Assembly: GCA_021822385.1 (NCBI GenBank)
Contig: JAKARC010000001.1
Coordinates: 1 to 64,000 of the forward strand
Direction of reading: 5' to 3'
Source of the DNA: Pseudomonadota bacterium
GTDB lineage: Bacteria > Pseudomonadota > Gammaproteobacteria > Steroidobacterales > Steroidobacteraceae
Length of the DNA stretch: 64,000 nucleotides
Shown: piece after piece, positions 16,267 through 46,137 of the stretch
Numbering within the stretch: position 1 is the stretch's first letter
How the letters are laid out: the number at the start of each line of letters is the position of its first letter
The notes under the pieces: generated by a model
The model's input: the letters and a program-made list of their open reading frames with translations, nothing else
Database searches by the model: none
What the model was told of the DNA's origin: nothing
Made by a program: the position numbers and the translations under genes

Positions 16267-18054
16267 TCATCCGGGCGCGGACCGGCGCGGTGCGAAGACC
16301 TGTGCATGGCGCGAGCCCGATTCGCGTATCCACGCGCGGCGCGGCCTGCGCCGGGCTGCCCGCGCCGGGGCGCGGTCGAGCCAGCCCCCTTTGAATCCGG
16401 CCCGCAGCAGGCCCGTGCGGATGTCGGGATTACGCCGCATGAGCCGCCAGATCAGATGACTGCGCTGATTTTCGATCATGGCGATGATCGGACCCTGGTC
16501 GATGCCGAGGAAGGCGCCGGCGACCCAGCCGCGGCCGGGGACGACGTGGCCCGATTGAGCCAGGCGTGCGTCGGTGAAGCTGGGGTTGAATGAATCGAGG
16601 AAGCCGTAGCGGGTGTAGATCATGTCGCCGTAGCGTCGCAGCAGCGTCTGGGTCGCTTTGGTGACGTAATGGGGGGCGAACATCAGCGAGCCGATCATCG
16701 CGGTTGGTGCGATCGTGCCGTCGTCGACATTGTCCCGGGTGATGCCGCGGGCGGCGTAGCCGTAGAACTGGCGCAGTCGGCCGTGAAAGGGTGCGCGCAC
16801 ATAGCCGGGTCCGTCACAGGCGGTAAAGCCCCAGATGTCGCGGCCATATCCGGCCCAGCCCTTGGGGTTGATGATGGCGTAGCGGCGTTGCACGAGCGTG
16901 GCAATTTTGGCGTTCAGAAAATACGTTTCTCCCTGAGAGCGCATGAACGCGTCGGCAATGCCGCGCAGATCGACCCAAACCGCGGTGTACTGATAACCGA
17001 ACTGCGGTCCGAACGACAGCAGCGTCAGGCCGCCGACGCGGCGCACATCGTGTTTGTCGGTTGAGCTCCAGGCGCTCCAGGCGCTCCTGCGCAGCGGGTG
17101 TGTGGGCGAACCCAGGCCCAGGATGTAAAGAATCGACGCTTCGTTATAGCCGCGCCACTGCCACTTGGAAAAACCACGGCGGGGATACCACGCCATGCTG
17201 ACCAGCCCATTGGCTGCCGGCGCGGCCCAACGCCAATTGACGCGCGCGTACAGGCGATGCGCCAGCTGGCGGATCCGTCGCTCCGTCGGCGTGTCGCGAT
17301 CGAAATATTCCCCCGCGGTCAACACGCCTGCCATCAGCAAGGCGGTATCGATGGTCGACAGCTCGCTGTTGCGATATCTCAGGCCGGTGCGCATGTGCAG
17401 GAAATGGTAGAAGAATCCTTGATAGCCACCGTCGTGCCGCCGGCTCGTACCCTGCGGCAGATGCCACAGGAATGAGAGCACCTTGACAACACGGTGCGCG
17501 GCGGTGCGCCGGGTGACATAGCCGCGATACGCACCGATCACATCCGCGGTGAGTGCGAAACCGACAGCGGCAATGCTCGAGGGGCCATCGTGCGAGGGCC
17601 AATGATCCGGCGCCAATCCCGTGACCGGATCCGTGGTGTTCCAGAAGTAATTGAACGTCCGTCGCTCGATGTCGTGGAACATTCGCCGTGGATGGCGTGC
17701 CAACGCGCGCACGCAACCGCGGGACAGCGGTGCGAGCGGATGCGACGGCGGCCGCAGGGAGGACGCCGGCGGACAGGCGCTCGTGCCGGCGAGACTGTGT
17801 ATGTCGATGCGCGGCGCGCCGATGCTCAGCGGCTTTGGCCGTGCTGCCCGGGTCGCCCGGCGCGTGGCCTGATCGGCCAGCTGCCGTGCCTGCTGCGCCA
17901 GCTGAGTGACCTCGGCCGCAAGCTGTCGAGCTCGAGCCGCCGCCGACGGCGACGCGCGATGTGCACACCCGCCGAGGGCAAAGGCTCCGATCGCGGCAAG
18001 CGCACCGGCCCGAGCTGCCCGGGCAATCCGCTCGCCGTACCGCGCAGGCCTCAT
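16267..18054 (-). CDS. Glycoamylase-like family lipoprotein
   Basis: 595 residues from ATG 18054. The N-terminus is a lipoprotein signal: basic residues, GALAAIGAFA and the lipobox LGGC near residue 30, so the protein is acylated in the envelope. A segment of about 40 residues rich in Ala, Gln and Arg (LAAEVTQLAQQARQLADQ) predicts a helical, perhaps coiled-coil, linker. From about residue 130 the glycoamylase-like (alpha/alpha toroid) domain follows, with RRTFNYFWNTTDP, LSTIDTALLMAGVL, the active-site region WQWRGYNEASILYILGLGSP, and SFGPQFGYQYTAVWVDLRG. Homologues are linked to beta-glucan processing in some bacteria; the substrate here is unknown. It is transcribed alone and divergent from the HemD-like gene. 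Confidence 0.8.
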   Translation of the reverse strand: MRPARYGERIARAARAGALAAIGAFALGGCAHRASPSAAARARQLAAEVTQLAQQARQLADQATRRATRAARPKPLSIGAPRIDIHSLAGTSACPPASSLRPPSHPLAPLSRGCVRALARHPRRMFHDIERRTFNYFWNTTDPVTGLAPDHWPSHDGPSSIAAVGFALTADVIGAYRGYVTRRTAAHRVVKVLSFLWHLPQGTSRRHDGGYQGFFYHFLHMRTGLRYRNSELSTIDTALLMAGVLTAGEYFDRDTPTERRIRQLAHRLYARVNWRWAAPAANGLVSMAWYPRRGFSKWQWRGYNEASILYILGLGSPTHPLRRSAWSAWSSTDKHDVRRVGGLTLLSFGPQFGYQYTAVWVDLRGIADAFMRSQGETYFLNAKIATLVQRRYAIINPKGWAGYGRDIWGFTACDGPGYVRAPFHGRLRQFYGYAARGITRDNVDDGTIAPTAMIGSLMFAPHYVTKATQTLLRRYGDMIYTRYGFLDSFNPSFTDARLAQSGHVVPGRGWVAGAFLGIDQGPIIAMIENQRSHLIWRLMRRNPDIRTGLLRAGFKGGWLDRAPARAARRRPRRAWIRESGSRHAQVFAPRRSAPG

Positions 18055-28522: not shown

Positions 28523-29001
28523 CCGTGCGCGGCGGTGCCGAGGGGTAGCGCCGTGGTCTCCTTGATGACCGAGAGCGCGATAAAGGAGTGCACCGACTGC
28601 ACGCCCGGAAAGCGCGACAGGTGATCGAGGAAGAAGGCCTCGTACGCCTTGATGTCACGGCAGGCGATGCGGAGCAGAAAGTCCGTCTCACCCATCAGGG
28701 TATAACACTCAAGAATCTCCGGATGGCGGCGCACCGCCTGCTCGAATTTGAGCAAGGCATCCCGGCCATGACCGGCAAGCTTGACCTGCGAGAATACCAG
28801 TACGTTCAGACCCACCTTCTCCCGATCGAGCAGCGCCACCCGCTTGCGGATGACCCCGGCGCTCTCCAGGCGGCTCATGCGCCGCCAGCATGTCGACGGT
28901 GTGATGCCCAGACGCTCGGCAGCCTCCGCGGCGGACAAATTGCCGTGCTCCTGCACGAGCTCAAGGATACGGACGTCCCCGCGGTCAAGATCGGTTTGCA
29001 T
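28519..29001 (-). CDS. Lrp/AsnC family transcriptional regulator
   Basis: 160 residues. N-terminal helix-turn-helix: DRGDVRILELVQEHGNLSAAE then LGITPSTCWRRMSRLESAGVI, followed by the RAM ligand-binding domain (LECYTLMGETDFLLRIACRD). This is close to the Lrp/BkdR group. It is divergent from the leucine-type dehydrogenase gene, and a local regulator of that gene is the natural inference. The 3' end overlaps the rsmG 3' end by four bases. Confidence 0.92.
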   Translation of the reverse strand: MQTDLDRGDVRILELVQEHGNLSAAEAAERLGITPSTCWRRMSRLESAGVIRKRVALLDREKVGLNVLVFSQVKLAGHGRDALLKFEQAVRRHPEILECYTLMGETDFLLRIACRDIKAYEAFFLDHLSRFPGVQSVHSFIALSVIKETTALPLGTAAHG

Positions 29002-29052
29002 GAAATATCCCGTTTTTAGAGGTGTTCATGCAACAAATAATTCATGAGATCA
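28999..29052. promoter_or_regulatory. AT-rich regulatory patch between the Lrp gene and the dehydrogenase gene
   Basis: This stretch is strongly AT-rich against the GC-rich surroundings and contains two direct TTCATG copies (29025 and 29041) plus a TGCATGAAAT at its left edge. Lrp-family sites are degenerate AT-rich dyads, so this is the likely site for the adjacent regulator. It also holds the likely promoters of both genes. Confidence 0.45.
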
Positions 29053-29147
29053 GGGCCCAGAGCAAGCTTTGTGACGCGGCGTGCAGCCCAAGAGCGTAAG
29101 GTGGGCGCGGCTGGGTGCGCCAGCCCGGTTCTTTGGGAGCTGAAACC

Positions 29148-41242: not shown

Positions 41243-43075
<1,833 letters not shown>

Positions 43076-43097
43076 GGCGGTGGTAGGAAGAGACAAA

Positions 43098-43180
43098 TGT
43101 GCAACTGAATTAGAGTCGTTACCCCGAAATAAAGTCGTTTCCTGAGAATTCAACATAAATTTCCCGAAAGGCAGTCGTGC
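43098..43180 (+). mobile_element. Candidate Tn7-like transposon end at attTn7
   Basis: Starting 23 bp after the last base of the glmS stop, the sequence changes to an AT-rich patch that opens with TGTG, as Tn7 ends do. It contains a tandem motif AGAGTCGTTACC (43112) and AAAGTCGTTTCC (43131), with a third, partial copy CAGTCGTGCC at 43173. The spacing of about 19-20 bp (and twice that) is what TnsB-binding repeats show. Tn7 itself inserts about 25 bp past glmS, with its right end proximal. The five bases before TGTG (ACAAA) would be the target duplication. The opposite end was not found. Confidence 0.5.
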
Positions 43181-43764
43181 CGCGCGGCGGGCGCTTCAAC
43201 ATCGACTGCTTCGGATGGCCATTCGGTGGGCGATGGGTAGATTTCGCACACGACGAGGGGGACCACGGTTGGTCCCAGCACTGCCGCGCGCGCCGGACGA
43301 CCACGGTTATACCGCTCTACCGCCATTTCTCGCGAAAGCCTTGCCCTTGACCGCCCGTTGCGGCGGTCGGCGGTAAATGGGCATTCAATTTTGACCCGCA
43401 CATGAGCGCGCCAGCTCGTGGAGTCAAAGGCGTGCAATGCCGGTCGGTGTTCAACGTACACGCCCGTGCGTCCACGACGGCGATGATCGAAGAGCGAATC
43501 GAGAAATCGAGGCGTGGCGGCGCTACGCACAAACCGGATCGGTTGCGCGAATGGCTCGACACGCCGGTCCATCTCTACAGTTCGCGGATACTGACGTTTG
43601 ACCTCCTCGCCGCTCGGATTGCGGGCGCGTTGTCCGATCGACGCCCCCGACCACGTGCGCAAACGCGTGCGGCACGTGCGAGCTGCGCAGCAGCGCTTCG
43701 TTGCCACTCGGAGTACCGACGCTGTCGGCATGTGCCGTTGGAAAGCTTGTGCCCGTTCACCCAT
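43150..43764 (-). pseudogene. Possible TnsA-like endonuclease remnant
   Basis: An open minus-strand frame. Its central part reads NPSGEEVKRQYPRTVEMDRR then VEPFAQPIRF, and later FLDSLFDHRRRGRTGVYVEHRP. This recalls the TnsA-like pattern (R..PS.. ..YP..KM.R ... V..F..QP ... D.L....GR...VEVKP), but about 25 residues appear missing after MDRRV. The usual catalytic Lys of the VEVKP motif is not there (VEHRP). No ribosome site or credible start. Codon use is poor and all frames hold stops nearby. Assignment rests on weak similarity plus position beside the candidate transposon end; it could be an unrelated chance frame. Confidence 0.25.
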
Positions 43765-44372: not shown

Positions 44373-45257
44373 ATGATGGCTGACACGCCCGAATACGTAC
44401 CGCCGAAGGTCTGGACATGGAACAAGCCGAACGGTGGCCGCTTCGCGAACATCAACCGCCCGATCGCCGGCGCCACGCACGACAAGGAGCTGCCCGTCGG
44501 ACGCCACCCGTTGCAGCTTTACTCGCAAGGCACGCCGAACGGCGTGAAAGTCACGGTGATGCTGGAAGAACTGCTGGCACTCGGCCATCGCGGCGCCGAG
44601 TACGATGCGTGGCTGGTTCGTATCGGTGAAGGCGAGCAGTTCGGCAGTGGCTTCGTGGCGGTCAATCCAAACTCCAAGATCCCGGCGCTGGTCGATCGCA
44701 GCGGACCGGAGCCGATCCGCGTGTTCGAATCGGGCTCGATTCTGGTGTATCTAGCGGAGAAGTTTGGTGCTTTTCTGCCCACCGCGCGGGCCGCGCGCGC
44801 CGAGTGTCTGTCGTGGCTGTTCTGGCAGATGGGCAGCGCACCTTACCTCGGTGGCGGCTTCGGTCATTTTTATGCCTACGCGCCCGTCAAGATCGAGTAC
44901 GCCATCGATCGCTTCGCCATGGAAGTGAAGCGCCAGCTCGATGTGCTCGACCGCCGGCTGGCCGACAATCGCTACGTCGCAGGCGATGACTACACCATCG
45001 CCGACATTGCCATTTTCCCCTGGTACGGCGGGTTGGCCAAGGGGTGGTCCTATGGGTCTGCTGCAGAGTTTCTGAGTGTACAGGAATACAAGCACGTGCA
45101 GCGATGGGCGGACATGCTGCTCGAGCGGCCCGCGGTACGCCGCGGCCGCATGGTCAATCGGACCTCCGGTGAGCTTTCAAGCCAGTTGCATGAGCGGCAC
45201 GACGCGAGCGATTTCGACACCAGAACGGCCGACAAGTTGCCGGCCTCGAGCCGCTGA
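44373..45257 (+). CDS. yghU: Glutathione S-transferase, YghU/Ure2-like
   Basis: 294 residues from ATG 44373, with AGAGGAG 5 bp upstream; a second ATG follows at once. YghU features are PPKVWTWNKPNGGRFANINRP at the start, the thioredoxin-fold part LQLYSQGTPNGVKVTVMLEE and NPNSKIPALVD, and FESGSILVYLAEKFG. The helical part has GSAPYLGGGFGHFYAYAP, QLDVLDRRLADNRYVAGDDY and IADIAIFPWY. The enzyme binds two glutathiones and has disulfide-reductase activity in E. coli. A TAAAAT hexamer at 44323 could be its -10. It is the only intact gene in 3 kb of decayed DNA, so it may be cargo of the element at glmS. Confidence 0.92.
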   Translation: MMADTPEYVPPKVWTWNKPNGGRFANINRPIAGATHDKELPVGRHPLQLYSQGTPNGVKVTVMLEELLALGHRGAEYDAWLVRIGEGEQFGSGFVAVNPNSKIPALVDRSGPEPIRVFESGSILVYLAEKFGAFLPTARAARAECLSWLFWQMGSAPYLGGGFGHFYAYAPVKIEYAIDRFAMEVKRQLDVLDRRLADNRYVAGDDYTIADIAIFPWYGGLAKGWSYGSAAEFLSVQEYKHVQRWADMLLERPAVRRGRMVNRTSGELSSQLHERHDASDFDTRTADKLPASSR

Positions 45258-45468: not shown

Positions 45469-45768
45469 TCACTTCGCTGCACTGCGCGATTGCTTGCGCA
45501 CGTGTTCCGCACCCTCGCGCTGCCGCCCCGCGTTACTCCTTACGGCCGGATCCAGGCTATTGCACCGTGGGCAACACTCGCAGCCAAGCGCTTCGAGTCG
45601 CTGCGGGTCGAGGACGGCGATGCGTCCCGGCGCGGGTGACGCCGAGCTTCCGTGGCATTCCGGCCGCTTCGGTCACCCCTTCGCGGCGTATCTCCAGCAT
45701 GTTTGCCACGCGTTTCTGGGTCATGGTCAGCTGATGCGGCGACGACCCGTCGGTAGACAGCGACAATT
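45469..45768 (-). pseudogene. Crp/Fnr family regulator pseudogene (C-terminal part)
   Basis: Minus strand: one frame reads LTMTQKRVANMLEIRREGVT then EAAGMPRKLGVTRAG, which matches the winged helix of cyanobacterial/alpha-type Crp-Fnr proteins (pattern LTQE..A.MLGVRR.GVT.AAG.LQ..GLI.Y). A one-base shift then gives IAVLDPQRLEALGCECC, the conserved tail (I.VLDR..LE...CECY) in another frame. The cyclic-nucleotide-binding N-terminus is not recoverable upstream of 45768. A frameshifted, truncated gene. Confidence 0.65.
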
Positions 45769-46137
45769 GCAGACCGCAGGTGCTGCCCGGTCAGCCGAAA
45801 TGCGTATCCTGCGCCGCGCTAACTCTTGGGAACCGCGCGAAATCGTGCCGAGCGGCCTCGCCCCCACATCAAGATCTGGAAACCGAAGTACGCATTCAGC
45901 ACGGAGCCGCGAAACGCCGGTTGTTCTTGCCGCCGCGATCGCGAGCTTGGGCTCACAGAGCCCAGTTGCGGTTCCCCGCGAGCGGCGATAGACCCGCGTT
46001 GCGGCACCACTGCATGCGCGGAATCACGTCCGGGACGTTCCGTCCGCTCAGATCAAGAACTCCCTACACGCCGCATACGTTACTCCCCGCATCGCCGCGC
46101 GTGCGCAGCGCGTAGTGTACCGGTATCAGTTGGACGT
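45769..46137. other. No intact gene; probable decayed upstream part
   Basis: Would contain the N-terminal part of the Crp-type gene if it were intact, but frames are broken by stops. No family is recognisable on either strand. The last 100 bp must hold the promoter of the LOV-domain gene. Confidence 0.4.

Follow-up and report, generated by a model that had tools for sequence, protein, structure and literature searches.

The stretch of DNA analysed here, referred to as the window (bases 1–64000 of contig C67, 64,000 bp in all, from a draft genome of 2.6 Mb in 90 contigs that is 85% complete), very probably contains at 43098–43184 the decayed right end of a Tn7-type element inserted at attTn7, from a family which in related genomes has shown cargo only and stacks in tandem. 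It is this family that is new, having Tn7-type ends, being cargo-only as far as seen and being stacked at attTn7 without a linked helper. The window copy itself is a relic only. Surveys of Tn7-like transposons that are based on tns genes leave cargo-only elements at the same site uncounted. The ends alone reveal tandem elements with transporter, STAND-NTPase and DUF5615 genes, apparently passing between species, and they raise the question of where the transposase and the reader of glmS come from in trans.

The right end downstream of glmS

The features identified at the 3′ end of glmS and directly beyond it were the following:

41243–43075, + strand: glmS (SIS and GATase Pfam matches; C-terminus NLAKSVTVE)
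43093–43097, + strand: ACAAA, a candidate 5-bp target duplication (by position only)
43098–43184, + strand: Tn7-type right end (model R1, 38.8 bits, E 4.2e-11; aligned with six right ends)
43112–43123, + strand: predicted TnsB-like site 1, AGAGTCGTTACC (27.3 bits, window-free matrix)
43131–43142, + strand: predicted TnsB-like site, AAAGTCGTTTCC (32.7 bits, window-free matrix)
43145–43184, + strand: internal right-end stretch opening with AATTCAACATAAAT (MAFFT; common to the right ends of G064 and G051)

The initial annotation had proposed a Tn7-like end here from a switch to AT-rich DNA opening with TGTG after the glmS stop, from tandem AGTCGTT(A/T)CC motifs, from the agreement with the insertion point of Tn7 and from the LAKSVTVE C-terminus of GlmS as the region recognised by TnsD, and each of these observations was confirmed. 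The TGTG lies at 43098, with 22 nt between it and the stop codon, and begins a patch of 38% GC (43098–43165). Equal AT-richness at that length was found at only one other place in the 64 kb, 28982–29055. The GlmS protein ends in NLAKSVTVE, and the last 36 coding bases of the gene are the counterpart of the TnsD-binding part of attTn7, described as a 36-bp site (PMC2918618). Tn7 is described in the same paper as inserting about 20 bp after the glmS stop with 5-bp duplications; the centre of ACAAA in the window is 20 nt past the stop.

The motif, in the form (A/G)AGTCGTT(A/T)CC, is present in two copies with cores at 43112 and 43131 (AGTCGTTACC at 43114 and AGTCGTTTCC at 43133), giving a spacing of 19 bp. 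When scored with a matrix from which the window's own sites had been left out, these two sites were the highest in the window (32.7 and 27.3 bits), followed by a third at 13.1 bits, and none of 100 simulated 64-kb sequences (first-order Markov) contained a site above 17.1 bits. A looser and weaker test, in which at most 2 mismatches to the 12-mer AAAGTCGTTNCC were allowed, gave 15 occurrences against 7.8 expected. A possible third copy of the site at 43173 is weak. These sites and those of the relatives are putative TnsB-binding sites.

Recognition of the end as such was supported by R1, a right-end model built from 11 ends of other genomes with the window excluded from training. It matched the window at 43097–43182 with the score listed above, the next match in the window having 7.3 bits (E 0.29), and at E 1e-4 the window end was its sole match in the window's own genome (E 1.7e-9). 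The right end comprises the TGT terminus, the two TnsB-like sites and the conserved internal stretch, and it aligns with the right ends of G064 (blastn, 74% over 120 bp) and G051, lacking two of their four sites. The site at 43131–43142 is best read as site 4 of a four-site right end, since the motif found after site 4 in relatives comes next to it in the alignment. In the R1 alignment it takes the place of site 2 instead, and sites 3 and 4 appear in decayed form; either alignment would make the window copy a worn right end.

Further downstream, two features were identified:

44373–45257, + strand: intact YghU-like glutathione S-transferase gene (GST_N and GST_C Pfam matches)
45560–45790, − strand: degraded remnant similar to a CRP-family regulator (56% over 43 aa by tblastn, E 3e-9)

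An intact YghU gene and decayed fragments downstream had been taken as further signs of an old or deleted Tn7-family element. The 3 kb past the end indeed hold an intact glutathione S-transferase gene, for which we assume the name YghU from that first reading, and apparently non-coding remains; a role of the gene as cargo is possible. Neither this gene nor the window's other downstream proteins gave a tblastn match (E 1e-15) in the DNA retrieved downstream of glmS from 16 other genomes (1–20 kb each), so no empty site is available for direct comparison. The CRP-like fragment resembles a gene carried in the glmS-array DNA of G054 and also on a G058 contig with a tandem junction. Its HTH_Crp_2 match is below the family cut-off (E 0.005, against 4.6e-15 for the G054 gene), and the fragment carries little weight as evidence because the domain is common.

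The matching inverted end that the initial annotation anticipated was not found in the window's own genome, at 85% completeness (best match to the left-end model R2, E 0.26, unconvincing), nor in the window with search filters off, and accordingly no second copy of ACAAA was found; of the 25 R2 left-end matches obtained overall, 6 are training ends. The tns genes that it also anticipated were likewise not seen with the window end. TniQ and Mu-transpos_C matches in the own genome occur only on contig C66 and rve matches only on C69 and C83, which leaves no tns gene near 43098, and a search of this genome for TnsA-like proteins gave no match. The window copy, with two sites and without a detected left end or tns genes, is therefore a relic, and it is presumably dead. 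In the description of an old or deleted Tn7 element it is the word deleted that needs changing, no tns gene having been found in the elements of this lineage; the copy is probably better described as what remains of an element that had Tn7-type ends and only cargo between them. Such an element, a member of a family that is cargo-only as far as seen and stacks in tandem, would have inserted about 20 bp past glmS with its right end towards the gene and then decayed until two TnsB-like sites were left.

Distribution and anatomy of the ends in other genomes

To survey the site, 24 genomes of the same genus were searched with the glmS 3′ region, 16 of which had readable DNA past the gene. A right end of the window type follows glmS in five (G003, G006, G007, G013, G021) and none was seen in the other 11, which shows that the sequence is not ordinary intergenic DNA common to all relatives. 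The ends of G007, G013 and G021 were read by eye and are absent from the R1 matches, possibly lying outside the set drawn. Nearly all of the genomes are multi-contig drafts, and the named ones from the pattern scan described below are metagenome bins.

In 396 genomes of the order, R1 gave 21 matches in 16 genomes, 16 of the matches lying directly downstream of glmS. The model had been trained on eight of the 21, seven of which are at glmS. Among the 13 non-training matches, nine (the window included) have glmS directly upstream, two (L198, L201) abut an inverted left end and two (L209, L210) have neither beside them. One more match, in G565, came from 369 genomes of the class. When a collection comprising 84,980 genomes was scanned for the two-site pattern, 74 stretches were obtained, 13 of which hold glmS, and in all 13 the array lies directly past the glmS stop. 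The exact pattern starts 42–83 nt beyond the end of the glmS match in 12 of these; in the thirteenth (L062) it is found 3.2 kb on, with a two-site end at the usual place. No glmS was present within the DNA fetched for the other 61 stretches. A single Prevotella MAG accounts for 32 of the 74, which seem to be unrelated. Viral contigs gave one stretch with the pattern.

The distance from the glmS stop to the TGT is 21–25 nt in 21 of 22 genomes, as measured by a script that takes the TGT nearest the first site (the TGT is lost in G064), and the bases in between vary. Right ends in relatives consist of TGTGCGnCCGAATT followed by up to four sites, one per 20 bp, and left ends have sites at 65-bp steps; this asymmetry is seen in the relatives, the window having two right sites. 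Tn7-like ends are reported to be recognised as arrays of inverted TnsB sites, with three sites on the left and four on the right and a median of 12 bp from the boundary to the outermost predicted site (PMC8649781). Target duplications were checked in six elements with both ends assigned; G007, G003 and the second element of G054 are further candidates. An exact 5-bp duplication was present in two (ATTGC in G070, ATTAA in G058), with agreement at 4 of 5 bases in G054 and 3 of 5 in G057; in G375 an offset match appears only when the boundary is shifted by one base, and G053 yielded no clear duplication.

Elements occur in tandem in G070, G375 and G054, where a left end is followed directly by the next right end, and right-end arrays away from glmS abut inverted left ends. 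Insertion adjacent to an existing Tn7-like element, giving several left and right ends, has been described (PMC8649781). The target would be read as in Tn7, and each new element would land beside glmS because it is the end of that gene that is read.

Elements with both ends and no tns match were found in G070, G057, G058, G054 and G375. They are about 3–16 kb in size with cargo genes. Between its two ends, the G057 element carries amino acid permeases, that of G058 a DUF5615 protein and that of G070 a STAND NTPase. At locus L087, type I restriction genes lie beside a right end, the left end not being seen there. The cargo of surveyed Tn7-like elements is reported to be enriched in defence genes (PMC8649781).

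Two further observations were made at the borders of these elements. In G007 (L038), the DNA just before a second right end near 16550 nearly repeats the flank next to glmS, CTTTAGATACGGACATT, over more bases than a 5-bp duplication explains. In G058 (L215, about 219–230), 12 bases similar to the terminus of a left end, TTCATGCCCACA, were seen between glmS and the right end and are perhaps the scar of an earlier element.

tns genes and the search for a helper

A homologous end next to tns genes, as looked for in the initial annotation, was found in G565, a distant genome of the same class, where R1 places a right end between glmS and tnsA/tnsB-like genes. The TnsA-like protein has two Pfam domains and 37% identity to the TnsA of an Acidiphilium MAG. 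The TnsB-like protein, cut by the contig end and without a Pfam match, rests on a tblastn match to the Acidiphilium TnsB (32% identity over part of its length). The position of this end beside such genes shows that ends of this kind belong to a Tn7-type element.

Within the order itself, no tns gene was found beside ends of this type. A tblastn search with 24 Tns/Tni proteins gave no match in 85 loci that contain such ends or lie next to them (683 kb, partly overlapping, with about 517,000 distinct 31-mers), and as a control the Tns/Tni proteins matched in all nine tns-bearing loci. No TnsD was over the cut-off in the 396 genomes of the order, which gave three weak partial matches; the Acidiphilium TnsD scored 245 bits as a control. 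TniQ of other kinds was present in 15 of 58 genomes of the genus. It was matched in half of the 12 that have R1 ends (G000, G050, G051, G053, G055, G058) and gave no match in the rest (G003, G006, G054, G057, G064, G070). In G006, TnsABC occurs at a contig edge, and in G003, G054, G057 and G070 no TniQ, TnsB-like C-terminal domain or true TnsA was found, the TnsA-family match of G003 looking like a Res subunit. Five TnsA-family matches in all fell in long ORFs of 919–1098 aa (G003, G011 twice, G056, G060). Four of these (not G011:C443) were rejected as TnsA, since their sequences look like those of restriction-enzyme (Res) subunits and three of the four have a methyltransferase-like neighbour.

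The search was also made in the other direction, from helper genes to ends. None of 17 loci examined, 16 of which carry tns/tni genes, contained a site array of this type (three single sites of 11.6–16.2 bits were present), and neither did 18 short TniQ loci of 2.2–3.5 kb each, a length at which distant ends would be missed. The right end of G003 had no match among 72,556 plasmids.

Two candidate sources were rejected since their end repeats differ. The first, considered as the source of the window end, is the window genome's own Tn7-like TnsB(part)–TnsC–TniQ(799 aa) operon at a contig edge (G000:C66; L002 15755–20000), near which no such array occurs. Its tandem repeats, of the CATAAAGTGATATTTCC type, adjoin a putative gene for ribonucleotide reductase, presumably nrdJ, and versions of the operon with TnsA and TnsB are found in G051 and G053. 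The same genomes contain in these elements a Tn7-like operon, with other end repeats and an insertion beside the putative nrdJ gene. The second, considered as helper, is the tnsABCD element directly after glmS in the Acidiphilium MAG (L172 3565–13584), which has an ORF without Pfam match at the TnsE position and, at its right end, GACAAAAAAGTTTG repeats spaced by about 21 bp.

In comparison with Tn7 at attTn7 of E. coli (PMC2918618, PMC8649781) and with tnsABCD elements (L172 and partly G565), the elements of this lineage share the site after glmS, a right end that faces the gene, the TGT terminus, right-end sites in tandem, left-end sites that are spread out and, in two of the six elements checked, exact 5-bp duplications. 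They differ in that no tns gene was found in or beside them, in that several are stacked at one site and, relative to L172, in their site sequence AAAGTCGTTWCC. Like MITEs and further non-autonomous transposons that are mobilised in trans (as described in PMC10969869), they keep their ends, no transposase was found in them and a helper would be needed; unlike those transposons, they are about 3–16 kb with cargo and lie at one site rather than scattered. Judging from its methods, the survey in PMC8649781 starts around tnsB and would therefore miss tns-free elements. Our search of the literature, a weak one in that most subscription journals were outside its scope, found no report of natural tns-free Tn7-type elements at glmS. 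The transposon Tn5468 of Acidithiobacillus is reportedly the subject of published work.

Movement of the elements and alternative readings

The first elements of G054 and G058, with lengths of 3192 and 3193 bp, align over 3184 bp at 99.2% identity, while the glmS genes of these genomes are 82.3% identical over 1469 bp and no similarity is present in the 1200 bp beyond the left end. The element seems to have passed recently between species, and the contrast between 99.2% and 82% identity suggests movement after the loss of tns. As the genomes are drafts, assembly error is possible. G050 and G051 represent a weaker second case, being 97.6% identical over 3046 bp with glmS at 82.8%, as the shared stretch is without a known left boundary.

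A TnsABC plus TnsD-type helper acting in trans would have moved these elements. We tentatively suggest, at somewhat less than even likelihood, that the spot past glmS is a cargo-stacking locus to which tns-free elements are still delivered by a helper outside the array and not seen in the sampled genomes, perhaps a TnsABC on a plasmid together with a selector that reads glmS and has escaped recognition.

The main rival to mobilisation in trans is recombination between arrays, in which DNA uptake and homologous exchange in glmS-array neighbourhoods would account for the spread between species and Tn7-type transposition would have built the arrays only long ago. We consider this somewhat unlikely. 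It would fit with the finding of no helper with these ends, and also with the G054/G058 alignment, outside which fall the outermost 10 bp of the right end, with further differences in the bases next to them. The exact duplication ATTAA around the G058 element speaks against it, as does the fact that the similarity of G054 and G058 stops at the left-end boundary. For the G054/G058 element, with both ends, no transposase found and this sign of recent movement, we infer transposition rather than recombination.

Less likely still is that the window copy derives from an autonomous Tn7-like transposon whose tns genes were deleted later, and that the elements of the relatives are immobile deletion relics. 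The Acidiphilium element and G565, with tnsA next to the right end, and the worn ends in the window and several relatives would be in keeping with such an origin. It is opposed by the tns-free elements with both ends in G070, G057, G058, G054 and G375, by the nearly identical element in genomes with 82% identical glmS and by the absence of any tns gene seen next to such an end in the order.

That the repeats are instead a glmS terminator or regulator-binding array, as their AT-rich position directly after glmS might suggest, is highly improbable and was rejected, being contradicted by their distribution (not seen in 11 of the 16 readable genomes of the genus), by the arrays away from glmS that abut inverted left ends and by the fixed distance with variable intervening bases.

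A number of other arrangements were observed around glmS in the same genus. The G013 bin contains two different glmS contigs (L040, L041) with a right end of this type after each, representing a second copy or contamination. In G022 (L039 14498–16314), a second glmS-like gene in two pieces, 45–51% identical, occurs about 14 kb downstream of glmS. In G017 (L042), a different start, TTTGCCAATATGAGCTGATACACC, follows glmS and is preceded by the same GAAAGAGACAAT flank, possibly representing another element type at attTn7.
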